Shown here piece after piece: positions 15,873 through 38,677 of a stretch of 64,000 nt of DNA. The notes beneath the pieces were generated by a model that was not told the origin of the DNA, searched no databases, and was given only the letters and a program-made list of their open reading frames with translations. The stretch's first letter is position 1. Every line of letters starts with the position of its first letter. The DNA is from Martelella lutilitoris (GTDB lineage: Bacteria; Pseudomonadota; Alphaproteobacteria; Rhizobiales; Rhizobiaceae): contig NZ_CP066786.1 of assembly GCF_016598595.1 (NCBI RefSeq), positions 1,263,501 through 1,327,500 on the forward strand, given 5' to 3'. Position numbers and translations under genes: made by a program.

Positions 15873-15885
15873 GGTTCAGCTATTT

Positions 15886-15957: not shown

Positions 15958-15964
15958 GCCAGTT

Positions 15965-16192: not shown

Positions 16193-16320
16193 TGGGTTTG
16201 CTGTCTCATTCATGTCGCTCTCCTTGACCGGGTTTCAATGATGTCACCATAGCGGCGAGGTTTTCGCCGTTCACCGAAGATTTTTCGAAAAAGATTTCCT
16301 TGAAATGCAGGGAGGATTTC

Positions 16321-16776: not shown

Positions 16777-16778
16777 TC

Positions 16779-18698: not shown

Positions 18699-18793
18699 TG
18701 ATGCGGCCGGGCGGCGATAAGGCCTCGAAAACCGCGCCGCCCGGAGCCCCTTCAAACAATCCGTTTTCAGCATTGCTCGAAAGGACCGAGACA

Positions 18794-19504
18794 ATGAACG
18801 ATATCGCTTTGCCCCGCAACAGGCGGCTCTACCTCGACATCGAGACTATCCCGACACAGGATCCGAAAACCTATGCTGAGATCGCCGGTAGGATCTCGCC
18901 ACCGGCCAGCATGAAGAAGGCCGAAACCATCAAGAAGTGGGAGGAGGAACAGAAGCCGCAGGCCGTGACTGATGCAATCGCCAAGACCTCGTTTGATGGC
19001 GCTGCCGGGCACATTTGCTGCATTGGTTGGGCGCTCGATGGCGAGCACCTGGACAGTCTCTCTCTGGGCCCGGACATCGCGCTCGAGCATGAGATGCTGA
19101 CCACGTTCTTCGAGGAGATCTCGAGCCAGATCCCGCGCTATGGAACCGTTCAGATTGTCGGCCACAACGTCATTGGCTTTGACCTTCGGTTTATCTGGCA
19201 GCGGTGCCTTATCCTCGGTGTTCGGGTTCCGGGCTGGTTCCCGCGTGATCCGAAGCCTTGGAGCGACGATGTCTTCGACACGATGACGGCCTTTGCCGGG
19301 GCGCGGGACTCGATCTCAATGGATCGACTTTGCGGAGCCTTTGGGCTTGAGGGGAAGGGCGACATAGATGGGTCGCAGGTTGCCGGGCTTTGGAGCGACG
19401 GTGAACATGAGACGATAGCTGCCTATTGCCGCGACGATGTGGAGAAGACGCGGGCGCTGCACCGCAAGATGATGGTTGCGCTGGGTGAAACGGAGGCTGC
19501 GTGA
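18794..19504 (+). CDS. 3'-5' exonuclease (DnaQ/PolB-exonuclease-like)
   Basis: 236-aa DEDD exonuclease related to the proofreading domain of family B polymerases. Exo I is YLDIETIP (Asp15, Glu17), Exo II IVGHNVIGFDLRF, Exo III AAYCRDDVEKT. Two metals are expected at these acids. It starts at ATG 18794 in the early operon, 95 bp after DUF669. It probably trims 3' ends during phage replication or recombination; no polymerase domain is fused. Confidence 0.83.
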   Translation: MNDIALPRNRRLYLDIETIPTQDPKTYAEIAGRISPPASMKKAETIKKWEEEQKPQAVTDAIAKTSFDGAAGHICCIGWALDGEHLDSLSLGPDIALEHEMLTTFFEEISSQIPRYGTVQIVGHNVIGFDLRFIWQRCLILGVRVPGWFPRDPKPWSDDVFDTMTAFAGARDSISMDRLCGAFGLEGKGDIDGSQVAGLWSDGEHETIAAYCRDDVEKTRALHRKMMVALGETEAA

Positions 19505-20442
19505 TGGTCAGTCTTCCGATCCCGAAGAGCCTGACCGCAGACAAGGTCAAGGCAACGACGCGCGAGGAAATGCCAAAACAGCGGCTTTCGCTCTCGGCCT
19601 GCACCGGGTGCAATCGTCGAGCGTGGTATGACTTCCTTCTATTCGGGCAGGGACGCGACATGCGTCCCGACCACAGTCGATCAGGTGATATCGCAATCGC
19701 ATTGAAGGGGGTTGTCATTCGGTGGTTGACCGCTGCCGGTATGACGGTCGAGACAATTAATGCAGCAACTGGTGAGATGTTGGCCGCGTCTGGTCTCGAT
19801 GGTCACCTATATTCGCCGATCGATGGGATCGTCACGGGCGTGCCCGAGGCGCCAACCAAGCGGCATCTGCTGATCGTTGCGGCGCTTAAGGCTGCCGACT
19901 TCGCAAAGCTTGAGCGTCAAGGTGCCGAGCAAACCCGGCCCGAGATCGTTGCGCGTGCCCAGCTTGGCATGCATCTGCTCGGTCTCGAGCGGACACTCTT
20001 TGCCTTCTGCAATCGCGACACGGGCGACTTTGGCGCTGAACGTATTCGTTATGACGCAGCTCATGCCGGATCGCAGGCCGTACGGGCTGAGTGGATTGTC
20101 GATACTCGCCGAGCGCCGGCGCGCATCAGTGAAAGCCCCGAGTTCTTCGTCTGCGCGCATATGTGCAGCCGCGCCGACATCTGCCATGGCGGTGTGCTTC
20201 CGCCGCGGCATTGCAGGACCTGCCTGCACGTTACTCCCATCAATGACGGCCAGTGGTACTGCGACCGGCACGAAAAGGAGTTGTCGTTCGATGACCAGCT
20301 AAACGGTTGCCCGAACCATCTTTTCGTTCCGGATCTCGTGCCGGGCGAGCAGGTCGACGCGGATACGACCGCTGAAACCGTGACCTACGAGCTTGGCAAC
20401 GGGCAGACCTGGATTGATGGAGCGGAAAGGAGGGCAGCATGA
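19504..20442 (+). CDS. PD-(D/E)XK/Cas4-like phage protein with altered active site
   Basis: 312-aa protein of the phage RecB/Cas4-like group. Cys33-x2-Cys36 precede a nuclease-like core with Asp107 (SPIDGIV) and Lys129 (VAALK). The glutamate expected two residues before that lysine is Ala127. Later cysteines (FVCAHMC, ADICHG, HCRTC, NGC) suggest a metal-bound module. It therefore looks catalytically weakened or inactive, unless the acid is supplied elsewhere. The start overlaps the exonuclease stop (TGATG) and its stop overlaps the helicase start (ATGA). Confidence 0.65.
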   Translation: MVSLPIPKSLTADKVKATTREEMPKQRLSLSACTGCNRRAWYDFLLFGQGRDMRPDHSRSGDIAIALKGVVIRWLTAAGMTVETINAATGEMLAASGLDGHLYSPIDGIVTGVPEAPTKRHLLIVAALKAADFAKLERQGAEQTRPEIVARAQLGMHLLGLERTLFAFCNRDTGDFGAERIRYDAAHAGSQAVRAEWIVDTRRAPARISESPEFFVCAHMCSRADICHGGVLPPRHCRTCLHVTPINDGQWYCDRHEKELSFDDQLNGCPNHLFVPDLVPGEQVDADTTAETVTYELGNGQTWIDGAERRAA

Positions 20443-22061
20443 TCAGCCTTCGCTACTATCAGGACGAGGCAAAGCAGGCCGTCATGAATTTCTGGGGCCA
20501 AGGCGGCGGTAATCCGTTGATCGATCTGGCCACCGGCACGGGCAAGAGCATGGTTATTGCGTCGATGGTGCAGGACTTGCTGCGCGATTATCCGACCTTT
20601 CGCGTTCTGATGCTCACTCACGTCAAAGAGCTTGTTCAGCAAAATTTCATGGCGTTGTTGCGTGTGTGGCCGGACGCACCGGCGGGGATCTATTCGGCCG
20701 GATTGAACAGGCGAGACGTGCACCACCGCATTACCTTTGCCTCGATCCAGTCAGTCTACAACAAGGCCAGTCAGCTCGGGCGCCGGGACCTCATTTTGAT
20801 TGATGAGGCGCATCTCGTGCCGCTCAAAGGTGAGGGCATGTATCGACGATTGCTCGACGATCTCTACGCGATCAATCGTGACGCTCGAGTGGCGGGTCTG
20901 ACTGCTACGCCTTATCGCCTGGATACCGGTCGGTTGGACGAGGGCGACACACGTCTCTTCGATCAGGTCGTGTACTCCTACGGGATTGCGAAAGGTATCG
21001 AGGACGGCTTTCTGTCGCCATTGATCTCCAAGGCCACTGCGGCTCGGATCGACGTTTCCGAGGTCAAACGGCGCGGCGGTGAGTTTGTGCCGGCCTCACT
21101 TGAGGGTGCTGCCGACGCGGTAACCCAGGAGGCGGTCTCCGAGATCGCTGACCTCGGCGCCAACCGCAAGTCTTGGCTTGTGTTCTGCGCTGGCGTCAAA
21201 CACGCGTTGAATGTTCGGGACGCAATCCGCGCTTCAGGTTTTTCATGCGAAACTGTCAGCGGCGAGACGCCATCCGGTGAACGTGACAACATCATCCGAA
21301 AGTTTCGCGCCGGTGAAATCCGGTGTCTCACCAACGCCAATGTACTGACCACCGGTTTCGACGTGCCGCAGGTTGACCTGGTTGCAATGTTGCGGCCGAC
21401 GCTTTCGACATCGCTCTACGTGCAGATTGTCGGGCGCGGAACGCGACTTTCGCCGGGCAAGGACAACTGCCTTATCCTGGACTTCGCGGGCAACGTCCGT
21501 CGGCATGGCCCGGTTGACGAGGTGTCCGTATTGCCGAAATCGGGCGGCGGAAGTGGCGAGGGAAAGGTCAGTGTTGACCGTGTCGCCGCGAAGGAATGCC
21601 CGGAATGCCGAGAGCTGATGGCTCTCAACGCGCGATCCTGCAAGGCTTGCGGCTACGAGTGGCCCCATGAGGACAAACCGAAGCATGAGGGGCAAGCCGA
21701 AAGTCAGGTCGGCATTCTATCGAGCGAACAGGTCGCCCCAACCATGTTGCCGGTCGTCGATTGGCGTATCCAGAAGCACGAAAAGTTTGGCGCGCCAGAT
21801 AGCCTCCGGGTCGGCTTCATCGCCGGATTGATGGAGTATCCAGAGTGGGTGGCGTTCGATCATGGCCGGTCCGCGTTTGAGCGCGCTTGCCAATGGTGGT
21901 CGATGCATGGCGGCGGCACACCCTTTCCCAAAAGCACGGACGAGGCTCTCGCGCGGACAGGAGAGCTGACCATTCCGGAGACCATCAGCATCAAGCCGCG
22001 AGGCAAGTATTACGACATTGTCGGCCGGAGCTTCCCTCAGACGCGAGAAGCCGCGGAGTAA
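20439..22061 (+). CDS. SF2 DEAD/DEAH-box helicase
   Basis: 540-aa superfamily 2 helicase of the phage type. Motif I is ATGTGKS (residues 31-37), motif II DEAH (122-125), motif III TATPYR, motif VI QIVGRGTRL. A C-terminal zinc ribbon (CPECREL..CKACGYEW) follows at about 387-408. Likely unwinds DNA at phage forks or recombination intermediates. Linked by a 4-nt overlap to the gene before it and 3 bp from the gene after it. Confidence 0.9.
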   Translation: MISLRYYQDEAKQAVMNFWGQGGGNPLIDLATGTGKSMVIASMVQDLLRDYPTFRVLMLTHVKELVQQNFMALLRVWPDAPAGIYSAGLNRRDVHHRITFASIQSVYNKASQLGRRDLILIDEAHLVPLKGEGMYRRLLDDLYAINRDARVAGLTATPYRLDTGRLDEGDTRLFDQVVYSYGIAKGIEDGFLSPLISKATAARIDVSEVKRRGGEFVPASLEGAADAVTQEAVSEIADLGANRKSWLVFCAGVKHALNVRDAIRASGFSCETVSGETPSGERDNIIRKFRAGEIRCLTNANVLTTGFDVPQVDLVAMLRPTLSTSLYVQIVGRGTRLSPGKDNCLILDFAGNVRRHGPVDEVSVLPKSGGGSGEGKVSVDRVAAKECPECRELMALNARSCKACGYEWPHEDKPKHEGQAESQVGILSSEQVAPTMLPVVDWRIQKHEKFGAPDSLRVGFIAGLMEYPEWVAFDHGRSAFERACQWWSMHGGGTPFPKSTDEALARTGELTIPETISIKPRGKYYDIVGRSFPQTREAAE

Positions 22062-22064
22062 CCC

Positions 22065-22406
22065 ATGCCTGCCGACAGATTTGTAGAGGGCGTGTGCGGG
22101 TGCTGCGCGCGCCGGGAAGTTGGTCACGGCATTGGCGTTGGTCGATCGACCATTTGGCTTTGCGATGACCCGGACTGCCTCGAGATTGCAAAAAGGACAG
22201 CGGTGATGAAGCAGGACAGGTTCAGCGATATCGAGAGCCTGGCGGCGCAGGACGGCGGCAATGAGGGGCTTTGGTTTCTGGAAGAGATCGGCAAAACCGA
22301 TCTGACCACGCTCACCATCGACGAGGTTTGCGAATTCAAGCGCCGCGTTGTCGCCGGATATCGCAAGGCGCTCAAAAACAATCTCAGGCGTGAGGCAGGG
22401 CTGTGA
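22065..22406 (+). CDS. Hypothetical phage protein, Cys-rich N-terminus (DUF6511-like)
   Basis: 113-aa protein with GVCGCCAR and LCDDPDC cysteine clusters near residues 10-40 that could bind zinc, then a helical C-terminal part. It resembles a small phage family often placed between helicase and primase genes (DUF6511, from memory). Its stop overlaps the GTG start of the primase gene. No activity can be assigned. Confidence 0.6.
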   Translation: MPADRFVEGVCGCCARREVGHGIGVGRSTIWLCDDPDCLEIAKRTAVMKQDRFSDIESLAAQDGGNEGLWFLEEIGKTDLTTLTIDEVCEFKRRVVAGYRKALKNNLRREAGL

Positions 22407-24649
22407 CTGTGACCGATGCAACGCGAAACGCGGACACGGCGTTGGAACTGGCCGCGGCCGGCTTCTATGTCTTTCCCTGCCATTCAGGCGGTGAGAAAGT
22501 CAAGCAGCCGATGCCAGGGGTTTTCTGGCGCAAACAGTCATCGATCGATGAGGCGGTCATACGCCGCTGGTGGTCGCGATGGCCGGATGCTGCGATCGGG
22601 ATGGATCTCGCAAAATGCGGGCTGGTCGTCATCGATGCCGATCGTCACGAGCTCGACAAGGATGGCGTCGAGGCCTTCGGCGCGATCATGAGCGATCACG
22701 GCTTCGACCCGGACAGCGCGCCATTGGTCGCGACGCCCTCGCGCGGCAATCACCATTTCTTTCGCCAGCCGCCCAGCAAAGAGTTCGGCAACGCTGATAG
22801 TGCACTCTATCGCGAACGTAAGCTGCGCGATATGGGTATCAATGTCCGGGGCGCCGGCGGCTACGTCGTCGCGCCTGGCACGGTCCTTAAGGATGGCAGT
22901 TTCTATGAACTGTGGGGCAGCCTCGAAGACATTCCCGTCTTGCCCGCCTGGCTGGCCGCAATCCTTGAAAAAGAGCTTGATGAAAAACAGGCGGAGCGGA
23001 TGCCCGTCCAGCGCTCGGAGATAATGGATAGCCGCGTGAAGGCTTATGTCGATGCGGCCATCGAGGCCGAGACGGCGCGAGTGCGCTCGGCTGGAAAGGG
23101 CGGCCGAAACAACACGCTCAACGAGGCTGCCTTCTCGCTGGGGCAGCTTGTCGGAGCCGGTCACGTTGGTGAGGCTGAAATCTTCGCCCTCCTGATGAAT
23201 GCCGCGATGGATTGCGGCCTGGGGCAGGCCGAGAGCCGAAAGACAATCCTGTCCGGCCTGAAAGCCGGCGCCAAGGTTCCGCGGCAAATCGCGGACATCG
23301 ATCGACCGGATGACGGGGCGAACGCCGAAGCAGCGCAACGGCTGATCGAGCATCATGATGGCACCCTGACCGATGCCGACACCGGCGAAGTGATAGATGA
23401 CGGAACGGGGCTGCAAGAGGGCGGCGATTGGTCCCATCCGGGCGGGTTGATCGAGGACATTGCCGACTGGATTGTCGAGACCTCGCCACTGCCTAATCGC
23501 AAGCTTGCCCTGGCCGCGGCAATATCCTTTGTCTCGCTCGTTTGCTCCAGGCATCGCGAAACGCCGGGTTTCTCCGGCGGTCTGCAGCTCTTTACCATTT
23601 GCACCGGCCAGACCGGCATCGGCAAAGACTGGCCGATGAAGGCGATCGACAGGTTGGCAGTAGAGGCCGGTCTGAAAGAGTTGGTGCGCTCCGGCAAGAT
23701 CACGACATCGCTTGCTCTCGAGAAAGAGGTAGAGAAGGTTGCTGCCCAACTGATCGTTGCCGACGAAGTCGGCCGTCGGATCTTCGGCAAGGCCGGGAGC
23801 AAAAGGGCAGGGACCTATGAGACAGCGATGATCGACACGCTTCTCGAGCTGTGGTCATCCAGCCCCGTCACCTTCTTTCGCACCACCAGCCGCGTCACGG
23901 GAGAGGCGGCTGTCATCGAGGGGCCGGCGGTCTCCATCTTCGGCGTCTCGACGCATCGCGATTTCTATTCCTCCCTCGGCCGATCAGCGATCGATAACGG
24001 TATGATCAACCGTCTGCTGATCATTGAGGCTGACAGGCGCAGCGCCTTGCGTTCAATCGATGGCAGCGCGGCCCGCACACCACCGACGCATATTATCGAA
24101 GCGATTGACGCCCTGAAGCCTGCCTTTGGTTCGCTGAATGGCGGTGTTCAGGCATACCGGGTGCCGGAGGGCGTGAAGACCAGACCGGTGCCATGGGGGC
24201 AGGAGGCCGCAAGAGAAGCGTGGAACACCTTTCGCGACGAGATGCTGGTCTTGGCTGATCAGAACGAAGAGACCGCACCCTTTGTCAGCCGCGCCGCCGA
24301 AATGGCGCTGCGACTCGCCTGTGTCCATGCGCTCAGTCGCTTGGGGCCGGATGGCGTGATAATGATGGCGAGCGTCGAATGGGCCATCAATGTCGTGCGT
24401 GAGAGCGTCAGGAATGCTGTTCAGGGCGCAAACGAATATATCGTCGCATCGGATTTCCAGGAGCATGTGCGCCGTGTTGAGAAGATCATACGCAGCAAGG
24501 GGCGGATGCCGAAGTCTGTCATTGCCCGCCGCATCGGGGGCGCGTTCGATAACCGCGTGCTCGAAAGCGTCCTCAGCTCTTTGGTTTTGGCTGGAAAGAT
24601 CGAAAGGGAAGAAAGAAGCCGCGGGGATGCTTATGTCTGGCGGGGGTGA
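22403..24649 (+). CDS. Primase-polymerase with DUF3987 helicase-like domain
   Basis: 748-aa replication protein. The N-terminal archaeo-eukaryotic Prim-Pol domain (residues ~10-200) carries GLVVIDADRH, with the two acids of the DxD motif, and TPSRGNHHFF. A DUF3987 P-loop-type domain follows (FTICTGQTGIGKDWPMKAID near 395-415, IVADEVGRRIFGKAG). It likely synthesises primers and may unwind the fork. It starts at GTG 22403 overlapping the previous stop and ends the early operon. Origin of replication not identified. Confidence 0.88.
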   Translation: MTVTDATRNADTALELAAAGFYVFPCHSGGEKVKQPMPGVFWRKQSSIDEAVIRRWWSRWPDAAIGMDLAKCGLVVIDADRHELDKDGVEAFGAIMSDHGFDPDSAPLVATPSRGNHHFFRQPPSKEFGNADSALYRERKLRDMGINVRGAGGYVVAPGTVLKDGSFYELWGSLEDIPVLPAWLAAILEKELDEKQAERMPVQRSEIMDSRVKAYVDAAIEAETARVRSAGKGGRNNTLNEAAFSLGQLVGAGHVGEAEIFALLMNAAMDCGLGQAESRKTILSGLKAGAKVPRQIADIDRPDDGANAEAAQRLIEHHDGTLTDADTGEVIDDGTGLQEGGDWSHPGGLIEDIADWIVETSPLPNRKLALAAAISFVSLVCSRHRETPGFSGGLQLFTICTGQTGIGKDWPMKAIDRLAVEAGLKELVRSGKITTSLALEKEVEKVAAQLIVADEVGRRIFGKAGSKRAGTYETAMIDTLLELWSSSPVTFFRTTSRVTGEAAVIEGPAVSIFGVSTHRDFYSSLGRSAIDNGMINRLLIIEADRRSALRSIDGSAARTPPTHIIEAIDALKPAFGSLNGGVQAYRVPEGVKTRPVPWGQEAAREAWNTFRDEMLVLADQNEETAPFVSRAAEMALRLACVHALSRLGPDGVIMMASVEWAINVVRESVRNAVQGANEYIVASDFQEHVRRVEKIIRSKGRMPKSVIARRIGGAFDNRVLESVLSSLVLAGKIEREERSRGDAYVWRG

Positions 24650-24949
24650 AGACGCGATAGGCTGGGTTTCCTGCTGTGACCAAGGCTGCCTTCTTTGCGC
24701 CACCAAAGGTCCTTTTAGGCGGACTGCTAGACCAAACGCGCTCGAACACACTGAGTGTGCTGGGCAGGGCGATGTGCTTTTGTCGGGTGCCTGGAACAAA
24801 GTTCTGTTCCGTTGTGATTATAAACATTTGGATTTTTGCTACCATTGAGTGTTTTTAATGCTTGATTCAATCTGCGAATTAAATACTCAGTTAACCATAG
24901 ACGGAGTATTAACTCGTCAACATAAACACGCTCGATCGAGGTAGCCGTT
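24650..24949. other. Intergenic junction to the accessory island
   Basis: 300 bp in which GC content falls sharply from about 24780. No gene is supported. It holds a near-perfect palindrome (CACACT-G-AGTGTG, 24747-24759) and an inverted repeat AATACTC/GAGTATT (24882-24888 / 24904-24910) 40 bp before the methyltransferase start. The latter may control that gene. Confidence 0.5.
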
Positions 24950-26263
24950 ATGTCGCTAATCGAAGCAGAAAAGGCAAACGGTGAAGAGTTTGTCTCTTTT
25001 GCAGAATGGCTGGATGGTCGTTATCTACGGTACCTTTCAACCAATTCTGGATCCGACGAGATTGCATTTCAAAGCTGGAAAAATTTCAAAGAGGCTTTCG
25101 CTCCTGAGCTCGTAGGGCAGGCTGTTGAGGAAACCTCCAGGTCGCTGGGCCGTCCGGTGAAATCCTGTATCGATCCATTCGGGGGATCCGGCACGACAGC
25201 TCTTGCATGCCAATTTCTGGGCGTGGCGCCGACTACGATTGAAGTAAATCCCTATCTCGCCGACCTAATCGAGGCAAAGCTGTACTCGTATGATGTAAGC
25301 TCTCTGATAGATGACTTTAAACAAGTGGCTGAAAGCCAAGAGAGCTTTATCGGCGACCGCCCGTTTGGTTCCGCGCCATCGACGTTTGTGGAGCCAGGCC
25401 AAAAGGGAAAATATATCTTTAACCATTCAATCGCTGAAGAGCTGGCATCTCTTAAAACTCGGATCGACGCGGTGAAGAATGACAGCAGCAGACGTTTGTT
25501 CAGAGTGCTTCTCGGATCAATTGCTCTTCCTGTCAGCAACGTTGTAATAAGTGGTAAAGGCAGACGATATCGTCGAGGATGGCAAGAGCGGCACTTCCAG
25601 GTTGGAGAAGTCAACAAGCTCTTTGCAGGGGCTGTAATCAAGGCAATCTATGAAATCCGCCGTTACGCTGGTCGACGCTACCGGGGTTATAATATCCTCC
25701 GTGGTGATGCGCGAAAGCTTACACCTGAGAAAGGACCGTATGATCTGGCGGTTTTTTCGCCGCCCTATCCGAATTCGTTCGATTACACAGACGTTTACAA
25801 TATTGAGCTTTGGATCTGCGGCTACTTGAATTCTGGGCTCGATAATAAAAGTCTTAGGCTTTCAACGCTTCGGAGCCATGTTCAAATCGCCCAGACATTC
25901 ACCTATCACGAGCTTCCGAGCTCACCGGAATTGGACGAAGTTGTTAGAGAGTTAAGAGATCTACGCAGCAGTCTGTGGAATCGGAACATTCCGGAGATGG
26001 TCGGAGCCTATTTCGCCGATATGTATATGCTGCTTCAGCGTCTACATAAATCTGTCGTTCCGGGTGGCCGTATATATATGGTTGTGGGAGATAGCCGCTA
26101 TGCCGGCGTCACCATACCTGTCGCGTCAATCCTTAGCGATATAGCAATCATATGTGGATTTTCCGCAATCGCCGAAGAGCCATTCCGCTCAATGCGAGCC
26201 TCACCGCAACAAGGGGGTAAAAAAGAGCTACTGGAAACTCTCGTCACCCTCCAGCGCGATTGA
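24950..26263 (+). CDS. DNA methyltransferase (SPPY motif, probable N4-cytosine/N6-adenine type)
   Basis: 437-aa AdoMet-dependent DNA methyltransferase. Motif I is IDPFGGSGTT (Asp75) and motif IV is FSPPY (SPPY at 270-273), with about 190 residues between. SPPY suits N4-cytosine but also some N6-adenine enzymes. The long insert may hold the target-recognition part. GC content is lower than in surrounding phage genes. It is convergent with the nuclease gene, overlapping its 3' end by 20 bp. It may protect the host or phage DNA from the adjacent nuclease; this link is inferred. Confidence 0.85.
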   Translation: MSLIEAEKANGEEFVSFAEWLDGRYLRYLSTNSGSDEIAFQSWKNFKEAFAPELVGQAVEETSRSLGRPVKSCIDPFGGSGTTALACQFLGVAPTTIEVNPYLADLIEAKLYSYDVSSLIDDFKQVAESQESFIGDRPFGSAPSTFVEPGQKGKYIFNHSIAEELASLKTRIDAVKNDSSRRLFRVLLGSIALPVSNVVISGKGRRYRRGWQERHFQVGEVNKLFAGAVIKAIYEIRRYAGRRYRGYNILRGDARKLTPEKGPYDLAVFSPPYPNSFDYTDVYNIELWICGYLNSGLDNKSLRLSTLRSHVQIAQTFTYHELPSSPELDEVVRELRDLRSSLWNRNIPEMVGAYFADMYMLLQRLHKSVVPGGRIYMVVGDSRYAGVTIPVASILSDIAIICGFSAIAEEPFRSMRASPQQGGKKELLETLVTLQRD

Positions 26264-27329
26264 GATAATCTTGGTCTTTTCGAGAGTCTGCGGTGCCTCG
26301 AAACAAGAACCATCGCCACAGCGGTACTTCTGCGGTGGCTGCGCTCTCCGCAATTTCTGTAAAGCACTTTTCGTGCCCAATATCCTCGCGTCTCATATCG
26401 TAGCAGCATAGCGCCGCACGACCAGCATTTAGGCGTTGTTTGTATGCAACTGCCTGTTCCAATCCACTTCGGATGGCTTCTCTGCATTTTGAATCCGAGA
26501 CTGAGCTACCAGTTGTGGTTTTATCCGCAAGCGCTTTGAGTTCGAGAATCCAGTCCGTTACCCTTGCCTTTTGTCCCTCAGAATTGCTGTATCGCCAAAT
26601 CTCAATATCTGCCCGGCCATCATCAGTGAATGTTTCCGCACGAAAGTTATATTTCACAAAGGCCACACGAAGGCCGTCCATTAGTCGTCCCTGGATGGCT
26701 TCTTCTGGACGAGGATCTGGAATGCCTTTATCAGATTTCCTCCATATCTTTTTCGCATGCCCTTCAGCAGCCAATGCCGGCGTACGCAGACACCTATGAT
26801 AGAAGAGGTTCAATGCCTTCTCCAGTTCATGTTCACTCATCGGCCCGTCTTCAAGTGAGACTTCGACTACGTCTTCCTGATTTTTTATGCCTTTCCTATA
26901 AAAAAGGACCACAGGTGTTGACGGGCGCCAATCGACTATCATTGTAGGCTTTTCTGACAGGTCTGCATGCCGAATTGTCTGAAATAAGCTCGCCTGATCT
27001 GTCCAAGTTAAAACTAGCTCGTGCGACGTTCGCAATGTGCAACTAGTCAACCACAACTTCCCCGAAACGGCGTCGGCACCATTGGCTAATAGAGGAAACT
27101 CCTTCAAATCGAACTTTGTAGGACTTTGGTTTGCTAAGCTCTGATCTAGAATAAAAGCAGAGAAATCCCCTGTTTCACGTTGAGCCAGGCGCAAATTGAT
27201 CAGCTTAGCTACTCGGACTCCAAATCTGATCGTGTCATCCGCTCCTGCCAACTCTGGAAGTCGAGAATTCGTTATAAAGCTCTCGATTTCGCTCGAGGAA
27301 ACGCCCCCTGTATCTCGCTCCTCAGCCAT
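26244..27329 (-). CDS. PD-(D/E)XK nuclease of the accessory island
   Basis: 361-aa protein whose C-terminal half has the restriction-nuclease signature: Asp241 in GRADIEIW, Glu263-x-Lys265 in WILELKAL, and Gln292-x3-Tyr296 in EQAVAYKQ, the RecB/Cas4-like QxxxY pattern. A conserved EEAIQGRL helix precedes at 209-216. The N-terminal ~200 residues are unlike anything I recognise. It is the last gene of the minus-strand operon, overlapping its upstream neighbour by 8 nt. Probably the DNA-cutting effector. Confidence 0.75.
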   Translation of the reverse strand: MAEERDTGGVSSSEIESFITNSRLPELAGADDTIRFGVRVAKLINLRLAQRETGDFSAFILDQSLANQSPTKFDLKEFPLLANGADAVSGKLWLTSCTLRTSHELVLTWTDQASLFQTIRHADLSEKPTMIVDWRPSTPVVLFYRKGIKNQEDVVEVSLEDGPMSEHELEKALNLFYHRCLRTPALAAEGHAKKIWRKSDKGIPDPRPEEAIQGRLMDGLRVAFVKYNFRAETFTDDGRADIEIWRYSNSEGQKARVTDWILELKALADKTTTGSSVSDSKCREAIRSGLEQAVAYKQRLNAGRAALCCYDMRREDIGHEKCFTEIAESAATAEVPLWRWFLFRGTADSRKDQDYLNRAGG

Positions 27330-27969
27330 TAGCCCTCCGTTGCATTAAGCGCATGTACATTACGAGCTTCTCTGCACGATTCAGAGTTACCCCTTCCTCC
27401 ACATACTGCTGAAATTTCTGGGCAGTGTTCCACGAAGCGTTGCCACGGGTTGGGGAAACCCACTCTGCAAAATCAACTACTCGTCCTTCGGCTACACCGG
27501 GATCAGAATATGCAGCATCCAAGCGAGCTGCATCGTCGCGGAGCTCAGGTCGAATTTCCACGAAAGCGTCAGCTAGCTCCAGCAAAAACGCCTCGACCTC
27601 AGCCTCATCTGGTAGAACACGGATTAGGTCCAATGCCTTTTCCGCACTCTCGTATCTCAGGCGAAATTCGGCGTGCAATTGATTTTCCTCACCACTCTTA
27701 AGTGCCACCACTTCGACCAAACCTAATCCCACAAGCCTATCGAGTTCCTTTTGCAGCGCGGGAAAATATGGGCTCTCGCCATCTTTCAGGACAGATCCTT
27801 CTAGAGGATAAAGATCCCACAGCGGGCTCAAGACATTTGCAAAAAAAGCAAAAGAATGAAGCGATATTGTATCAATTGGGGTTCCGCCTGTCTTTTCCAG
27901 TGCAAGAAACATTTGCAAAAGGCGTGCGCGAATAAATAGCGGAAGCATATGTTGATGAGAGAAGTTCAT
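27322..27969 (-). CDS. Small middle component (Lamassu LmuC / ABC-3C-like)
   Basis: 215-aa, mainly helical protein. Its N-terminal part (SLHSFAFFANVLSPLWDLYPL near residues 37-57, then YFPALQKELDRLVGLGLVEVVAL) has the winged-helix-like look of the middle components that accompany SMC/ABC ATPases in defence operons. No catalytic motif is visible. ATGA overlap with the ATPase gene and 8-nt overlap with the nuclease gene imply a fixed complex of the three products. Family call is by analogy. Confidence 0.6.
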   Translation of the reverse strand: MNFSHQHMLPLFIRARLLQMFLALEKTGGTPIDTISLHSFAFFANVLSPLWDLYPLEGSVLKDGESPYFPALQKELDRLVGLGLVEVVALKSGEENQLHAEFRLRYESAEKALDLIRVLPDEAEVEAFLLELADAFVEIRPELRDDAARLDAAYSDPGVAEGRVVDFAEWVSPTRGNASWNTAQKFQQYVEEGVTLNRAEKLVMYMRLMQRRANG

Positions 27970-29951
27970 GTCGATGGATCATTCTTCAAGAGATCATCAA
28001 CAATTTTATTGTATTCGCTTCGCAGAACATTCAATGCTGCAGTTGGTGCGCCCAATTCCACCAAATTGACAATTCGCTCTCTCTTCCTTCCCATCCCCTG
28101 AAAGTTCTTCAATGAATTTGGTATTAAACCACCCTCGACAATGTTGCAGGCTAGAATGTTATTATATTCACCGTCTGAATCGCGAGTTTTCGAAAATAGG
28201 TTACCCGCTTTCTGGGCGAAAACAGCATCGACGGAACCTTCCGGTCCGTCAAAAATAAGCGTGCCTCCTCCCGAGCCAAGCACCTCCATCAATGTCAATC
28301 GGAATATTATGTCTAAATACTCTCTCTGTGACAAAGAAACCTGGGACAATTTTCGTCTTATAAAATTCCCTTCAGTGGCTGTACTGGTTAGCTCTACCTC
28401 AAAGGCAGGAAATTCGAAACTCCGACCACCTTGTCCAATTCTGTCATGACGAGGTTCGTAAACAAGTCGTACGTTCTCAGCGAAAAAATCCTTCGCTGTA
28501 ATATTGAATTTGTCTTCAATTGATACTCTTATTTCCTCTGTTTTATTTACAACGAAACTTAACAGTAATTCGATTTTCTCCTCGGCTCTTTCCCTCTCTC
28601 TTCGGAATTCACTAACTTGCCTTCGCATATAGACAATATTTTTCTCATCCTCAGATAGGGAAGACTGTTCTTTGTTAGGTAATTTCTTGACGAGACTACG
28701 ATACTCGTTCCGTAAAGTTTGGCTTTTTTGTTGTGACAGCTCAAGAGCGTTATCGATTTCTTTGTATTCATCCTCCGCAGCAGAAAATTGATCGGCCGCG
28801 TTGGCAAGTTTTGCACGCAGCCGCACGAGTTCTCCAAATACGTGATCCGCCTTTTCCTTTAGGGCATCAGCGGCAACTACGACATTTTCTCCGAAATCTT
28901 TGGCTGTCCCGCATACCAAGCATTGGCCGTCCTTTTGCCGTTCCTCTAGCTCAGCAGCGGCAGCGTCAGCATGCTCCTCACCGCAGGCAAGGCATTTATG
29001 TTCCGAGACCAGTTTCATCAATACGTACTGATCGCTGGGAGGGAGTTCGGCAAATGAGTGACGCAAAAGATCGAATTTTAGACGCTCATATTTAAGTGCT
29101 GTATCATCGACATCTCTCTCTATTCTTTTGAGCGCTAGCCGTGCGTCCGTTCGTCGTTGTTCGCATTCATCAAATTCAAGCTGACGAGTGATCTCTATCT
29201 TCGATGCTCGATCGAGATCTGCTGCCACCCGACTCAGCTCTGCTCTAACCGCTACTTCAGATGCTTGCTGAAGCGAAATTTTTTCACGACGCTTTACAAG
29301 CCTAGTTAGAGCGGCATTTATATTTCTGGCCGCACTGTCAGAGGAGACAATTTCCTTCTCAAGCTCACGGAGTTGTCCCGAATTCTCAGGTGTGAGGATC
29401 GCTCGAAAAACTTCGAATTGGGCCGCTGAATTCCAGACTAAAGTCTCCCTTGTCTCGAGGAAGAACGTGACGCGTTCCAAGATGCGGACTGCGTCTTCAA
29501 ACCGGCTCACACCCATTAGGGTTGCGACAATCGTCTGATAATCGAGTTCTGAAGCAATACTCTCGTTCTGCGCGTTGATGATCTCGGCGGAGATCAAACT
29601 TAGGTCGTTTAAACTCCTCTTGACGCGCAGTACCCTTGGGCCAAAACGGATTTCGGCTTGCGCGGTGGCGTTTTTCGCCCCATCGGAAACACGAACCGCG
29701 AACATACGTTTGTCAGCTGCGACGATATCCGCGCGCTCTCCGCCGAAGCCGGGGGGGCGAAGACTGACCGCCCCGAGCAAAATATGCTTTAGCACAAGCA
29801 AAAGCGTGCTCTTTCCAAGGCCGTTCACCCCGAGGATGATCCAAGGTCCGCCGCCAAATTTAAGCTTGAGGCCTGGAGTTTTTTCAGTCCCAGGATATAG
29901 AAGGTAGTTTTCAATATCTAAGCTTTGGAAAGTCGGGAACAAAACCGCCAT
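27966..29951 (-). CDS. SMC/Rad50-like ABC ATPase of the accessory island
   Basis: 661-aa ATPase. Walker A GVNGLGKST at 41-49; coiled-coil arms about 190-310 and 360-480; hinge tip with two CxxC pairs (Cys320/323 and Cys344/347); signature helix VSLSQREYLDIIF near 538-550; Walker B LIFDGPEGSVD near 565-575. The PEGS(V/L)D form after Walker B is the one I associate with ABC-3C/Lamassu-type ATPases rather than Rad50. It is the first gene of a minus-strand operon with the middle component and nuclease. Likely a sensor of foreign or damaged DNA ends. Confidence 0.8.
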   Translation of the reverse strand: MAVLFPTFQSLDIENYLLYPGTEKTPGLKLKFGGGPWIILGVNGLGKSTLLLVLKHILLGAVSLRPPGFGGERADIVAADKRMFAVRVSDGAKNATAQAEIRFGPRVLRVKRSLNDLSLISAEIINAQNESIASELDYQTIVATLMGVSRFEDAVRILERVTFFLETRETLVWNSAAQFEVFRAILTPENSGQLRELEKEIVSSDSAARNINAALTRLVKRREKISLQQASEVAVRAELSRVAADLDRASKIEITRQLEFDECEQRRTDARLALKRIERDVDDTALKYERLKFDLLRHSFAELPPSDQYVLMKLVSEHKCLACGEEHADAAAAELEERQKDGQCLVCGTAKDFGENVVVAADALKEKADHVFGELVRLRAKLANAADQFSAAEDEYKEIDNALELSQQKSQTLRNEYRSLVKKLPNKEQSSLSEDEKNIVYMRRQVSEFRRERERAEEKIELLLSFVVNKTEEIRVSIEDKFNITAKDFFAENVRLVYEPRHDRIGQGGRSFEFPAFEVELTSTATEGNFIRRKLSQVSLSQREYLDIIFRLTLMEVLGSGGGTLIFDGPEGSVDAVFAQKAGNLFSKTRDSDGEYNNILACNIVEGGLIPNSLKNFQGMGRKRERIVNLVELGAPTAALNVLRSEYNKIVDDLLKNDPST

Positions 29952-30354
29952 TGCAAAATGCCCCTAGATACTAAGGCGACTGCGCAACCCACTCTTCGGG
30001 CTGCACCACGATTGAGACCATCGTGGATTTTGTGAAAAAAATAACAATTCGCCCCCCCTTTGGAATTCTCCATCTATCTTTGCGCGATGGAAAGATTGAA
30101 TCAATAAATTGATTTCATTTTTATATGAGGTCCTTGAGAAACGGGCACCGGTGTTGGGCTTCTTTTCGCTCGGATTATGCTGTAACAAATTGATATTTAT
30201 ATATTTATCGGAAAGCGCGGCTCTGTTCCATGTCGGACTTTTGATTTTCGCCCGCTAGTACGGCACGCTTCGCATCCTTTGGGAGTTTTTGGAGAGGCTT
30301 TGAAGGGTATTTGAAGCCGGCCTGTGAAAAAAGACTCAAAATTCATGAAGCCTT
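29952..30354. promoter_or_regulatory. Upstream region of the ATPase operon
   Basis: 403 bp without a gene. It carries two inverted repeats upstream of the minus-strand ATPase start: CCACGAT/ATCGTGG (30006-30012 / 30020-30026), likely inside the message leader, and AATCAAT-AA-ATTGATT (30099-30114). Both are candidate regulatory sites. No -35/-10 pair was convincing. Confidence 0.4.
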
Positions 30355-30504
30355 ATGTCAAAGGCGCTTGGCGGAGAGGGGGCTAAGTTCCATAAGGTCC
30401 CTGGCGCATACGCAGCAGATGCTGCTGTCTCAACGCTTTTTGAAAAGATCGACAGCGAATGGCCTACGCTCACGCTGAACGTGGAATATTGCAGCCTGGT
30501 CTGA
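30355..30504 (+). CDS. Possible small protein or gene remnant (49 aa)
   Basis: Reads MSKALGGEGAKFHKVPGAY and ends YCSLV, with codon composition more like a GC-rich gene than its AT-rich surroundings. No ribosome binding site or known domain was recognised. It may be a fragment left by an exchange at the right border of the accessory island. Low confidence. Confidence 0.22.
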   Translation: MSKALGGEGAKFHKVPGAYAADAAVSTLFEKIDSEWPTLTLNVEYCSLV

Positions 30505-30561
30505 CAAACAGCACCCGCTAAGTTTGGGTTGTCGCGAAACCGGAATCTTGTTGTTCAACTC

Positions 30562-30635
30562 GTTGCAACATTGGCAGCTAACTTGGCGGCCTTTCAGCGG
30601 GCTTGTTGCCAATGTTGCAACACTTCGGCAACAAG
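30562..30635. repeat. Two overlapping, mutually exclusive inverted repeats
   Basis: A perfect 15-bp inverted repeat (30562-30576 and 30607-30621) shares bases with a second perfect 9-bp one (CTTGTTGCC 30602-30610 and GGCAACAAG 30627-30635). As RNA, only one of the two stems could form at a time. Located before an AT-rich promoter-like stretch that leads to the next phage genes. Confidence 0.6.
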
Positions 30636-30676
30636 ATATAGGACTTAAGATATTGATATATATAATAAAATTTATC

Positions 30677-30705
30677 TTGTTGTCATATTGCCTTGTTTCT
30701 ATAAC
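30677..30705 (+). promoter_or_regulatory. Candidate promoter for the 30804 gene and NusG-like gene
   Basis: TTGTTG (30677-30682) and TATAAC (30700-30705) at 17-bp spacing, about 100 bp before ATG 30804. A second TATAAT occurs at 30661 without a clear -35. Confidence 0.35.
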
Positions 30706-30803
30706 TCGATATTAAATGCGTTTTTCCTTCATTTAATGCCAGATTTGAGTCTATATTGGGGGTGGTTTTGTATTATGCGCAATATGGACAACAAGGTTTT
30801 CAA

Positions 30804-31286
30804 ATGGGCAAAACGGCTTGGAAGTTGGCGCCGGGTCAGTGGGTTCGGCTTCGATCGGGTGGCGGCCTGCTTGGCAAGTTCGGACGCATCACCTCGATCG
30901 ATGAGGGCGGCCTGATCTACATCGAGACGGATGGCTGCAAAGAGGTGGCGACCGTGCGCGAGGACTTCAGGGTTATCCGCTCCAGGTTGGCGCCGCATGC
31001 GTGGTTCCCGATGCGCAAGACGCTGCCCTATGGCCGGTACAATTGCCCGGACGGATCTGTGGTCCTGCACAATCGCGATTACCAGCCGCTTGCGCGCATC
31101 TCCCCCTCGGGCAGTGTATCCACCTGTCTGACCTCGGAGCGCATCCACTACGATAGCCAGGAATGGTTCTGGGGAAGTGCGACCGGGATGGCATCGCCCT
31201 GGCGTTCGGATGCGGTGTTCAAAATGTGCGTTGAGATCATGAATGATCCCGTTGTGTTCTTGCGTTCGGTTCCGGAAATGAGTTAG
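30804..31286 (+). CDS. Hypothetical phage protein (160 aa)
   Basis: Starts at ATG 30804 (MGKTAWKLAPGQWVRL); upstream in-frame codons to 30756 would need a TTG start. An SH3/KOW-like stretch (GKFGRITSIDEGGLIYIETDG near residues 20-40) is visible, but no family is certain. Being next to the NusG-like gene, it may be a partner in transcription control; this is positional inference only. Both genes are on the plus strand, 65 bp apart. Confidence 0.6.
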   Translation: MGKTAWKLAPGQWVRLRSGGGLLGKFGRITSIDEGGLIYIETDGCKEVATVREDFRVIRSRLAPHAWFPMRKTLPYGRYNCPDGSVVLHNRDYQPLARISPSGSVSTCLTSERIHYDSQEWFWGSATGMASPWRSDAVFKMCVEIMNDPVVFLRSVPEMS

Positions 31287-31351
31287 TTTTCGCTTGCCCT
31301 GCCACGGCACACCATCGGTCCAAACTTGCCCTGCAAACCCGGAGCCGATGA

Positions 31352-31909
31352 ATGAAGAAATGTTTGAATAACGGTCGTCTGCCTGAGCTCGTATCTGAGC
31401 TTGATTGGTATGCGCTGCTTGTCCCGCCTCAGAAAGAGTTCGCCGCTCAGGAGATTTTGTCGAAGCGTGATATCGCCACGTTCTGCCCGTTTCAGAGCGT
31501 CTGGCGAAAGCCGTCCCGGTATTCGAAGGACAAGGTGCTGAAGCACTATCCCGTTATGCCGCGCTATCTTTTCGCTGGATTTGCGGGGCAGGTAGACTGG
31601 TATCGCCTGTTTCAGATGCCCTTGGTCAGCGCAGTCGTTGGTGTCGCCGGTGAACCCAGGTGCTTCGACAACATGGACGCATTTATCCGCAATTTCAGGA
31701 ATGGGCTTCGCCGGCCTGACCATGACCGGCATATGCCAACCCATCGCGAGTTTGGCGTCGGGGACACTGCTGTGATCGTCGACAGCGCTCTCGCTGGCCG
31801 TCATGTGGTGGTCGAGAGTATCGACAAAGGTCACGCGTTCTTTACGGTTGAGATGTTCGGAGGGGAGATGCGACTGAGCCTGCCAACAGATAAATTAGAA
31901 GCTGCTTGA
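31352..31909 (+). CDS. NusG-like transcription antitermination factor
   Basis: 185-aa NusG paralogue. The NGN domain opens with DWYALLVPPQKEFAAQEIL and continues CPFQSVWRK, HYPVMPRYLFAGF, the RNA-polymerase-binding face. A KOW-like C-terminal part begins FGVGDTAVIVDSALAGR. Such specialised NusG proteins attach to a paused polymerase and let it pass terminators. The gene lies directly before a strong terminator (32026-32049) and the whole late cluster, so it likely turns on late transcription. Confidence 0.82.
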   Translation: MKKCLNNGRLPELVSELDWYALLVPPQKEFAAQEILSKRDIATFCPFQSVWRKPSRYSKDKVLKHYPVMPRYLFAGFAGQVDWYRLFQMPLVSAVVGVAGEPRCFDNMDAFIRNFRNGLRRPDHDRHMPTHREFGVGDTAVIVDSALAGRHVVVESIDKGHAFFTVEMFGGEMRLSLPTDKLEAA

Positions 31910-32025
31910 CAATGGGGAACAAATCGGAAACAAATAGCGCAGGATGATTTGGGTCCCTCGGCCGATCGGTGTCGATACCTGAACCCGGAAGGCGCGAAAG
32001 GCGCTCTTCACAGATGGATGTTTAT

Positions 32026-32049
32026 GGCCGCTTTCATAGCGGCCTTTTT
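32026..32049 (+). terminator. Strong intrinsic terminator before the late genes
   Basis: A perfect 7-bp GC-rich stem GGCCGCT/AGCGGCC with a TTCAT loop is followed by TTTTT. It separates the NusG-like gene from the structural genes and is the natural target of antitermination. Confidence 0.85.
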
Positions 32050-32078
32050 CGTTTCCAGACATCGAAAGCCCAAAAAGC

Positions 32079-32330
32079 ATGGACACCTTCAAGAGCTATT
32101 CCTCTGGCGTTACCGCGCCGGCCTCCCATGCTGCAGAAGTGACCCCTGGCGCCGAAGCCCTCAGTGTCGCGACGCGTGCCCTGTTTGTTGGCGGACGCGG
32201 TGATCTCGAACTGACCATGCTCGGTGGTGAGACGGTGAAGCTTGTCGGCGTTGAGCCTGGCTATCATCCGCTCAGGGTAACGCATGTGCTCAGTGCCACG
32301 ACGGCGACGGACATTGTCGCGCTCTGGTAA
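32079..32330 (+). CDS. Spike base protein, RCAP_rcc01079 family (copy 1)
   Basis: 83-aa protein resembling the small spike-base protein of the Rhodobacter gene transfer agent: ATRALFVGGRGDLELTM, then a proline-free strand pair and the ending VLSATTATDIVALW. The same ending pattern recurs in the gene at 44719. Position before HNH and terminase genes suggests a head or decoration protein. Its 3' end overlaps the HNH gene by 47 nt. Confidence 0.68.
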   Translation: MDTFKSYSSGVTAPASHAAEVTPGAEALSVATRALFVGGRGDLELTMLGGETVKLVGVEPGYHPLRVTHVLSATTATDIVALW

Positions 32331-32616
32331 GGGCGAGCGTCACCGGCTTTACCAGACGGCGGCGTGGCGGAAGCTACGCCTTCAGGCGATCGCCCGAGAC
32401 GGTGGCCGGTGTCGGATGTGTGATTGCCACGTGGTTTCCGGACGCAGTGATCCGCAGGCAGCCGAGGTTGATCATATTCAGCCACACAGGGGCGACAGGG
32501 CGCTGTTCTTTTCGCTCGGCAATCTTCAGACGCTTTGCAAGTTTTGCCACTCCACGGCCAAGCAGCGGATGGAGAGGGGCGGTCGGATGCAACGCGATGA
32601 TGGTTGGGCCCCCTGA
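32284..32616 (+). CDS. HNH endonuclease
   Basis: 110-aa HNH nuclease with the metal-binding cysteine pairs CRMC and CKFC and the core AEVDHIQPHRGD..NLQTLC. HNH proteins next to terminase are needed for DNA packaging in HK97-type phages, where they cooperate with TerL. The start at ATG 32284 overlaps the previous gene; TTG 32314 is an alternative that reduces the overlap. Next gene is TerS. Confidence 0.85.
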   Translation: MCSVPRRRRTLSRSGKGERHRLYQTAAWRKLRLQAIARDGGRCRMCDCHVVSGRSDPQAAEVDHIQPHRGDRALFFSLGNLQTLCKFCHSTAKQRMERGGRMQRDDGWAP

Positions 32617-32700
32617 TAAAAAACAAGGGGGTGGTGTCTGGTTACCCGCGGCCCACCTCCGTTCGCACTGAGATCAAGCTGAAAGATGGGGTAGGGGTCT

Positions 32701-33099
32701 ATGGCGGTGAAAAAGCCTCGTCAGCCACGCTATGCCGATATCTTTCGAGCGGACGAAGAGAAGGCGGTAAAGGCCAAAGAGGTCTGGCGCGAAACGATCG
32801 ATTGGCTGGACGAAAATGGCCTCCTGACTGTCCGGCGCGTTGAGATCGCCGATCGATATGCGCGGGCCTGCGCTGAATACCACGCGCTTTATCCAATCGC
32901 AGTCGAAGAGGGGCCGGTGAAGGTTGGCCCGAACGGCGGCGACGTCTTCAACTTCAATTGGTCGGCTTGCGAGAAGCTCAACGACCGCATGGCAAAATTC
33001 GAAGATGCGTTGCTGATCAGCCCCAAGTCCGCACAGGATAAGGTCGCGGAGAAGCCGCCCGCATCAAAGCCCACGAAAGCTGACGCGTACCTTGATTGA
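32701..33099 (+). CDS. Terminase small subunit (P27 family)
   Basis: 132-aa acidic, helical protein of the P27 type. It begins MAVKKPRQPRYADIF, with EVWRETIDWLDENGLLTVRR and DRYARACAEYHALYP, the helices that bind phage DNA near the packaging start. It precedes the large subunit with an 8-nt overlap, the standard HNH-TerS-TerL order. Confidence 0.83.
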   Translation: MAVKKPRQPRYADIFRADEEKAVKAKEVWRETIDWLDENGLLTVRRVEIADRYARACAEYHALYPIAVEEGPVKVGPNGGDVFNFNWSACEKLNDRMAKFEDALLISPKSAQDKVAEKPPASKPTKADAYLD

Positions 33100-34864
33100 C
33101 CAGACAACGGAATGGGCACGTAAGGCCGCTTCCGGTGAAATCATTGTGGGCGATCTTGTTCGGCTGGCAGCACAGCGACATCTCGATGATCTGCGAGATG
33201 GCGCAAAACGCGGCCTCACCTGGGATCTTGCTGCCGCGGAGCGGGCGATCAACTTCTTCCCTTCGGTATTGAGCATCACGGAAGGCGCGAAAGAGGGAGA
33301 GCCCTTCAAGCTCTTGCCGTGGCACGTCTTCGTGGTCGGATCGATTTACGGCTGGAAAGACGCGAATGGGCTTCGTCGGTTTCGGTTCGTTTGGATGGAA
33401 ACCGGTAAGGGGCAAGCCAAGTCGCCGTTGATGGCCGGCCTCGGGCTCTATGAGATTGCTGGCCGGAAGCGCCGGCGAGCCGAAGTCTATTGCATTGGTG
33501 AGGATCGGAAGACCGCCAACGTCATGTTTCGCGATGCGGTCGCCATGTGCCGGGCGCCTATCCCGGATAAGGAAGACGAAACGCTCGAAAGTCTGGGAAA
33601 GGTGATGATCCGGGGCTTTGGTGACAACGCCTGGAAGATCGAACACCCGGCCAGTGGTTCGAAATTTGAACCGGTTGCAAACAGCGATGCAATCTCGGGA
33701 CCGAAACCTGTTCTGGTTCTCGGTGACGAGATCCACGAAATGAAGACGAACAAGGCCATTTCGATCTGGCGCGCCGCGATCGCGAAGATGAGCGGTGATC
33801 CGATGATGGTTTTGGGCACCAATACGCCGTCCGTCGACCAGCATGTCGGGACCGAATACAGCGAATTCTTTCAGAAGGTGCTGCGCGGCGAATTTACCGA
33901 TGACTCTGCCTTTGCGTTCATCGCGAGGACGGATAAAGGCGATGATCCGCTTCACGACGAAAGCTGCTGGGTCAAATCCCTTCCGGCGCTGGGCATCACC
34001 TATCCGATCGAGAACGTGCGAAAAGAGGTTGAGACCTCCCGCAACATGATCTCGACTGCATTGACGACCAAGCGTCTGTATTTCGGCATCCCGGTCGGTA
34101 CGGCCGGCTTTTGGATTGCTGAGGATGCCTGGGAGCGCGTTCAGGGTGACGTTGATGAAGAGGAAATGGTCGGGCGGAAGCTCCACCTCTCGCTCGACTT
34201 GTCAGAAAAGAACGACCTGACGGCGCTTTCGGGATGTTGGGAAGGCGAAACCCTTGCCGCGAAGACTTGGTACTTCACCACTGGCGAGCGGGTCGACGAA
34301 CGCAGCACGGCCGATCAGATTCCCTACCGCGAGATTGAGGCGGCCGGACAGGTGACCATCACGGCGACTGCCACGATCGACTATTCTTTCGTGGTGAGGC
34401 AGGTCGCGGATCTCTATTCGAGGCACGATGTCGAGCAGATGGTGGTGGACTCGACCTTCATCCAGAACTTCATAAGGGCGGCAGATGATGCTGGCTTCCC
34501 GGTGTGGAAGTACGAGGGCGACGATCAGCCCGAGGGCGTTGGCTTGAAGATCGTACCGCATGCCCAGGGAAGCAAGGTTGTCTTCGAAGAGAAGATGCTT
34601 TGCATGCCGCTGTCCATGCGGCACCTCGAGGACAGCATCCTCCGCAACGTCGTGGTCATTGATCGAAATCGCCTGACCACAATCTGTGCGTCAAATGCGG
34701 TCGTTCAGTCTGACGCCTTCAAGAACAAATGGTTCGACAAGCGGAAGTCCCGAGGTCGGATCGACGGCATGGTTACCATTGCCATGGCGGTCGGTTCGGC
34801 GGCGAGTCGAATGGCCAGCCAGACGCGGTCGTATCTCGAGGAAGAGGAATTGATCATCCTATGA
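33092..34864 (+). CDS. Terminase large subunit
   Basis: 590-aa packaging motor and nuclease. ATPase half: Walker A-like ETGKGQAKSPL near residues 109-119 and Walker B PVLVLGDEIHEMK near 206-218. Nuclease half: LSLDLSEKNDLTAL near 368-381, VVDSTFIQNF, and C-terminal RIDGMVTIAMAVG. It starts at TTG 33092 (MIDQTTEWARKA), overlapping TerS; there is no better ATG before conserved residues. ATGA overlap with the portal gene. Confidence 0.92.
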   Translation: MIDQTTEWARKAASGEIIVGDLVRLAAQRHLDDLRDGAKRGLTWDLAAAERAINFFPSVLSITEGAKEGEPFKLLPWHVFVVGSIYGWKDANGLRRFRFVWMETGKGQAKSPLMAGLGLYEIAGRKRRRAEVYCIGEDRKTANVMFRDAVAMCRAPIPDKEDETLESLGKVMIRGFGDNAWKIEHPASGSKFEPVANSDAISGPKPVLVLGDEIHEMKTNKAISIWRAAIAKMSGDPMMVLGTNTPSVDQHVGTEYSEFFQKVLRGEFTDDSAFAFIARTDKGDDPLHDESCWVKSLPALGITYPIENVRKEVETSRNMISTALTTKRLYFGIPVGTAGFWIAEDAWERVQGDVDEEEMVGRKLHLSLDLSEKNDLTALSGCWEGETLAAKTWYFTTGERVDERSTADQIPYREIEAAGQVTITATATIDYSFVVRQVADLYSRHDVEQMVVDSTFIQNFIRAADDAGFPVWKYEGDDQPEGVGLKIVPHAQGSKVVFEEKMLCMPLSMRHLEDSILRNVVVIDRNRLTTICASNAVVQSDAFKNKWFDKRKSRGRIDGMVTIAMAVGSAASRMASQTRSYLEEEELIIL

Positions 34865-36646: not shown

Positions 36647-36678
36647 CGGGCCATATTCCTCAAAATCTGGAGAAAACC

Positions 36679-37881: not shown

Positions 37882-37930
37882 TATGAAAGGGGCGGCTACG
37901 GTCGCCCTCATTCTCCCATGAGGCTGACAT

Positions 37931-38667: not shown

Positions 38668-38677
38668 GGTCTGCAGT

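Follow-up and report, generated by a model that had tools for sequence, protein, structure and literature searches.

Lamassu type II, ABC-3C and DdmABC have in common a three-gene operon encoding a coiled-coil ATP-binding cassette (ABC) ATPase of about 650 aa with a CxxC hook, a small middle protein and a nuclease effector. The composition of Lamassu is set out in PMC10586767, according to which the effector domain of LmuA lies at the N-terminus and is followed by a variable C-terminal docking domain, the Walker B glutamate is replaced by glutamine in LmuB, and what Lamassu recognises is poorly understood; type II includes LmuC (PMC8565338). What is said of the papers cited here refers to the parts of them that were available. 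Here, we describe a locus in a 64,000-nucleotide stretch of Martelella lutilitoris DNA (NZ_CP066786.1, positions 1,263,501 to 1,327,500; referred to as the window, to which coordinates refer unless a locus is named), where a prophage carries a Lamassu-like gene trio together with a DNA methyltransferase (MTase) gene. We conclude that the four genes are one real conserved unit, whose linkage is kept despite varied gene order. Since distant relatives retain all four side by side, the genes probably make up a single antiviral system that is little known. The reading we favour, with some reserve, is that of a mobile, ATP-gated unit resembling restriction-modification, built on a Lamassu-type sensor, in which the MTase would protect self.

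Described systems come near to this composition from several sides. CxC-ABC systems join a coiled-coil ABC ATPase to cytosine methylases, and in PbeABCD the partner is a DndE-like ribbon-helix-helix protein and the nuclease an HKD enzyme fused to a superfamily 2 (SF2) helicase (PMC10853773). Hma is a candidate defence operon made up of an MTase, an ATPase and a third protein (PMC8565338). BREX is covered in PMC12839542. The word 'methyl' was not found in the available part of the Lamassu review (PMC10586767), nor ABC ATPase, SMC, Lamassu or MADS as whole words in that of a restriction-modification review (PMC12707154). In the literature searched, as far as its available parts extend and with Krishnan 2020 (ABC-3C) and Haudiquet 2025 excepted, we found no description of a Lamassu-like trio with an MTase.

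Organisation and conservation of the locus

The MTase gene (24950..26263, plus strand, 437 aa) faces an operon of three minus-strand genes, encoding an LmuB-like ABC ATPase related to Rad50 and the structural maintenance of chromosomes (SMC) proteins (27966..29951, 661 aa), the middle protein (27322..27969, 215 aa) and a PD-(D/E)XK nuclease (26244..27329, 361 aa). Each open frame starts with ATG. The ATPase and middle genes overlap by 4 nt and the middle and nuclease genes by 8 nt, and the nuclease and MTase genes overlap convergently, stop to stop, by 20 nt (26244..26263). These coordinates, lengths and overlaps are, base for base, those given in an earlier note on this DNA. Since each of the four has relatives in public data, the open frames are more than chance.

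The pairing of MTase and trio put forward in that note is far from rare among the relatives. Besides the window, the non-redundant set comprises 17 complete four-gene loci (L002–L009, L015, L017, L018, L023, L024, L026, L030, L031 and L034), one locus truncated at a contig end (L022) and one degenerate locus (L032). L027 and L023 are one and the same contig, and L028, which matches L024 in gene lengths and scores, was counted with it once; the tally leaves aside L029, which ends inside the ATPase gene, and L025 and L033, which have other partners. Complete loci occur in several Proteobacteria, in phage contigs and in metagenome-assembled Actinomycetota and Chloroflexota, those from metagenome assemblies being L003, L004, L006, L007 and L009; in L009, the ATPase is split over two frames.

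Gene order varies among the complete loci. The MTase is convergent to the trio in 12 and lies between two trios in the Burkholderia locus; in the loci with all genes in one direction, it comes last in three (L026, L030 and L031) and first in one (L024). It adjoins the nuclease gene in the window and in 13 other convergent loci. In this group of 14, to which L022 belongs, 12 loci show the stop-to-stop overlap, which measures 4 to 62 nt. In the Burkholderia stagnalis locus (L034:5793-15916), the two trios that flank the single MTase gene are diverged from one another.

Searches begun from different members of the unit lead to the same genomes. The middle protein was found at no fewer than eight distinct loci in the genome contigs, and the ATPase, middle, nuclease and convergent MTase genes stand together in eight out of eight. 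It is present in 2 of 385 genomes drawn from the class (the window's own and G079) and in 4 of 394 drawn from the family (own, G391, G539 and G655). MTase searches of both draws (E ≤ 1e-40 and 1e-30) returned the identical two and the identical four genomes, and the ATPase profile (E ≤ 1e-8) recovered from the class draw the same two plus a 44-position P-loop match in G034. The four-gene system is rare, with five different genomes over the two draws combined, own included; G655 and locus L005 were judged to be one genome from their identical hits.

Among plasmids, the middle protein occurs in one record (B. stagnalis), the ATPase in two (Azospirillum brasilense in addition) and the MTase at E ≤ 1e-20 in three, the third being a Cryobacterium plasmid whose MTase relative, 25% identical, is encoded in an operon alongside two methylases and an AAA ATPase. 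In viral contigs, the MTase profile found four loci: L023 and L024 with the trio, L022 with the nuclease at the contig end, and L025 with other partners. The ATPase profile found at least six there, five with an adjoining MTase, and L029, already mentioned. The single ATPase search, the middle profile and the nuclease profile gave no match in the viral contigs, and the middle protein, MTase and ATPase gave none in the phages collection.

Chance linkage of the four genes is ruled out by same-genome co-occurrence, the independent searches and the recurrent overlaps. The related proposal that the MTase is an unrelated prophage gene, directed for example against host restriction, which came to lie beside a Lamassu-like operon by accident, could draw on its separate strand and own promoter region in the window and on the other partners of the L025 relative. 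It would leave unexplained the linkage in 17 complete relatives in several gene orders and the agreement of independent searches on the same genomes, and we give it scarcely any credence.

The trio members diverge together. Over 17 loci (the window and 16 others, with L009, L022, L032 and the second Burkholderia trio omitted), pairwise identities correlate at 0.87-0.89 within the trio and at 0.64-0.73 between its members and the MTase, and 0 of 2000 permutations reached any of the observed values, shared ancestry being uncorrected. Divergence can be considerable: the middle proteins of L024 and L030 score just 6.6 and 15.4 bits against the profile. In the trees, inner branches with good support are few and several are long, and we therefore do not draw an order of events. 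In the degenerate locus L032, the ATPase is split, and the slot of the nuclease is occupied by a protein of 300 aa that shows 8 bits of similarity to the N-terminal part of the nuclease; at L032:9257-11880 (A. brasilense), a KAP-type NTPase separates the MTase from the degenerate trio.

The four proteins compared with known systems

The ATPase is LmuB-like. The PADLOC LmuB model PDLC03859 matches all 13 ATPases scanned, that of the window with E 9.8e-13 over residues 29-573, and of the other PADLOC models mad3 matches 12 and one PbeC model 6. The Pfam match, to AAA_23, lies barely above the curated cut-off (E 3.7e-6), and a profile search of solved structures returned mostly ABC transporters, coiled coils and Rad50/SMC heads. 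Walker A is found in 17 of 17 ATPases compared, the window's included. A VSxSQ signature is present in 15, the pattern being unmatched in L030 and L031, and two central CxxC motifs (at 320 and 344 in the window) in 16, with none in L008. Walker B takes the form hhh[D/E][A/G/T]PExS-D in 16, L031 being unmatched by the pattern. Because its acid is followed by Ala, Gly or Thr and not by Glu, the motif makes a slow, ATP-gated switch a likelier role for the ATPase than a translocating motor. LmuB differs in having Gln at this position (PMC10586767, available part).

In the nuclease, residues E232, D241, E263, K265 and Q292 are invariant in 43 of 43 aligned relatives and Y296 is kept in at least 90%. 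Pfam family PDDEXK_9 matches 13 of these 43 at E ≤ 0.01, and the window protein itself at 1.5e-3, under the cut-off; the best Foldseek row is MUS81-EME1 (E 1.6e-3, probability 0.99). The catalytic residues, 232-296 of 361, occupy the C-terminal half and include Q292xxxY296; a QxxxY motif beside the PD-(D/E)XK core is known from RecB-type nucleases. LmuA is absent among the 50 best structure-search rows, which excludes nothing, and the PADLOC search gave no LmuA match at E ≤ 0.1.

The remainder of the nuclease is a separate N-terminal alpha/beta domain. A structure-only lead pointed to a DisA-type sensor here, on which view the nuclease would answer a nucleotide signal and the MTase would be an accessory. 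When the N-terminal profile was aligned by hhalign with the DAC-domain proteins of L046 and L047, the scores were 13.0 and 14.3, below the 18.7 and 19.6 reached among 40 column shuffles of each comparison. The lead was rejected on these scores, and a nucleotide-signal effector is very improbable.

The middle protein has no family match at E ≤ 0.1 in four libraries, among them Pfam, in which at least one family of ABC-3C middle components, MC2 (PF20288), is present. PF20288 matched nothing in 14 control genomes, a result that shows only that the library includes it. The middle protein is predicted to be a winged helix with C-terminal helices, and this model aligns to the LmuC-size chains of three Lamassu structures with middling, tied scores. 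LmuC is absent from the 50 best Foldseek rows, an absence that excludes nothing, and neither the middle protein nor the nuclease had an informative relative in profile searches of solved structures.

In the MTase, motif I (DPFGGSGTT, residues 75-83) precedes motif IV (SPPY, 270-273), and by its motifs the enzyme would be an amino-methylating one, acting on N6 of adenine or N4 of cytosine. It matches Pfam N6_N4_Mtase barely above the curated cut-off (E 2.2e-6) and PADLOC type II MTase models at 1.2e-44 for the best; in the profile search of solved structures, the motif I region alone was matched. Across loci with the arrangement of the window, conservation among the four proteins is highest for the MTase, which is 46-61% identical to that of the window as against 24-46% for the ATPase. 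Such conservation is compatible with an active role in sensing, in which the trio would recognise methylated DNA, or the nuclease would be triggered when the MTase modifies DNA that is entering the cell or being replicated. On this view, the DNA of the host would itself be put at risk by a resident MTase, and convergent, apparently separate transcription seems a better fit to opposed roles; we regard modification-dependent restriction as improbable.

The earlier note had called the trio Lamassu/ABC-3C-like, with an SMC-type ATPase and a PD-(D/E)XK nuclease. Both enzyme assignments are upheld, the first by PDLC03859 and the second by the conserved catalytic residues and the PDDEXK_9 matches. 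The broader label suits the ATPase well, and for the middle protein it has tied fold scores of middling height behind it; it does not fit the nuclease, whose catalytic domain is C-terminal whereas LmuA carries its effector domain at the N-terminus. Because of this difference in domain order, the system is not classed as Lamassu proper; it is a relative near Lamassu, from which it also departs in its fourth gene, the dedicated MTase.

The resemblance allows a different account of the fourth gene, as the safety catch of an abortive Lamassu. The trio would then be an indiscriminate, cell-killing nuclease triggered by DNA structures, and the MTase would merely silence the complex on resident DNA or make the prophage addictive, with no site-specific restriction. 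The LmuB-like ATPase is in keeping with this, and so is QxxxY, which is known from nucleases without a recognition site. The same has been proposed for DdmABC, which is described as abortive with non-specific cutting (PMC12409362, in its available part). Described Lamassu systems, as far as the available parts of the sources go, are without a dedicated conserved MTase, and the nuclease is laid out unlike LmuA; on balance, we think this account rather unlikely.

Other classes fit less closely. With Type II restriction-modification, the locus shares adjacent MTase and nuclease genes and the matches of its MTase to PADLOC type II models; it differs in having two extra conserved proteins, one an ABC ATPase, and no shared recognition domain was identified. 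MADS is by name a methylation-linked defence with ATPases, mad2 being an MTase and mad3 and mad8 ATPases, and comprises a larger gene set. Membership was rejected, as the window matches are weak and far below the best families (mad2 2.4e-6, mad3 2.6e-5, mad8 1.3e-4); the four proteins gave no match to the other mad genes in PADLOC. Hma encodes a helicase, a 5-methylcytosine (m5C) methyltransferase and an ATPase (PMC8565338, available part), and its models match none of the four proteins at E ≤ 0.1 (for the MTase, among the 25 best families); it too was set aside. PbeABCD resembles the window system in combining a coiled-coil ABC ATPase with a DNA methylase, and differs in its other two components, for which the window has the predicted winged-helix partner and the PD-(D/E)XK nuclease. 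It is the weaker fit, LmuB matches being stronger and more general than those of PbeC, and membership was rejected since none of the window's four genes encodes an HKD nuclease/SF2 helicase fusion. One such neighbour was seen, in the Chloroflexota metagenome-assembled genome (L009:6259-10023), where a gene for an HKD and Snf2 helicase protein (PADLOC C3a139, 2.6e-51) adjoins the MTase on the same strand and recalls CxC-ABC systems.

Proposed mechanism

In the restriction-like reading that we favour, the MTase would mark resident DNA, that of host and prophage alike. The LmuB-like ATPase, presumably a dimer, and its winged-helix partner would bind foreign DNA in an ATP-bound clamp, the target being a DNA end, a replication intermediate or DNA without the mark. 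Binding by the clamp would release or position the PD-(D/E)XK nuclease, which would cut DNA lacking the mark.

Several observations weigh against this. No target-recognition part was identified in the trio. The correlation of the MTase with the trio (r 0.64-0.73) is weaker than that of the trio members among themselves, and the enzyme may be coupled to them more loosely. In L025, a viral contig, a relative of the MTase (44% identity) is convergent to genes for a KaiC-like ATPase (849 aa) and for two proteins that match no Pfam family (L025:7992-13428). The Actinomycetota and Chloroflexota loci may have been mis-binned in metagenome assembly. Support from a defence-island setting is weak, 3 of 10 long flanking proteins in the relatives matching PADLOC at 1e-10.

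L025 is possibly a second machine using the same MTase family. We suggest only tentatively, and on balance doubt, that the window system represents a new class, in which a Lamassu/Rad50-like clamp in place of a translocating helicase would read a missing DNA mark, or an unmarked end or structure, and license a separate nuclease; the MTase family shared with L025 would then supply a common tag of self-identity. A Lamassu-like machine with its own MTase makes the question of self and foreign directly testable: if methylation silences the system, then the clamp or the nuclease reads a mark. Such a system would join restriction-modification and SMC-like sensing, branches of immunity usually treated apart.

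The carrier prophage

The four genes lie in a prophage of 44.9 kb (12476..57375). A 74-bp exact direct repeat, with copies at 12476-12549, by the integrase gene, and at 57302-57375, overlapping tRNA-Pro at 57337-57413, bounds the element, and the two copies are likely attL and attR. The four genes are flanked by a primase gene (22403-24649) and by one for a transcription antiterminator (31352-31909). To their left are genes for integrase, a CI-like repressor, recombination and replication; to the right, the antiterminator is followed by HNH, terminase, portal, protease, capsid, tape-measure, tail-fibre and lysis genes. In 1-kb windows, GC is 0.44-0.51 across 25-30 kb and 0.47 at 30-31 kb; on the left it is 0.59-0.62 (20-24 kb) and on the right 0.56-0.65 (31-55 kb), in agreement with the low-GC stretch within a prophage to which the earlier note had drawn attention. 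Two more stretches of low GC (0.49-0.51) occur at 14001-16000, in the repressor region, and at 55001-57000, near the right end.

Elsewhere in the 4.79-Mb host genome, the ATPase profile finds only four fragments (E 1.3e-4 to 8.4e-4). Seventeen prophage proteins tested against the relative loci gave weak matches (the repressor in L022 and L029, a Cas4-type exonuclease in L022), and a shared phage slot is therefore not shown. Among the carriers of relatives, the L023 contig has a Mu-type transposase and a terminase, the L026 contig has a portal gene, and a serine-recombinase integrase is present at L002 and L030. A scan for promoters and terminators was uninformative, giving 6 and 6 sites where 7.1 and 7.6 were expected. 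By eye, a perfect 15-bp inverted repeat is seen in the gap that separates the ATPase operon from the antiterminator gene (30562-30576/30607-30621), possibly an operator or a terminator.
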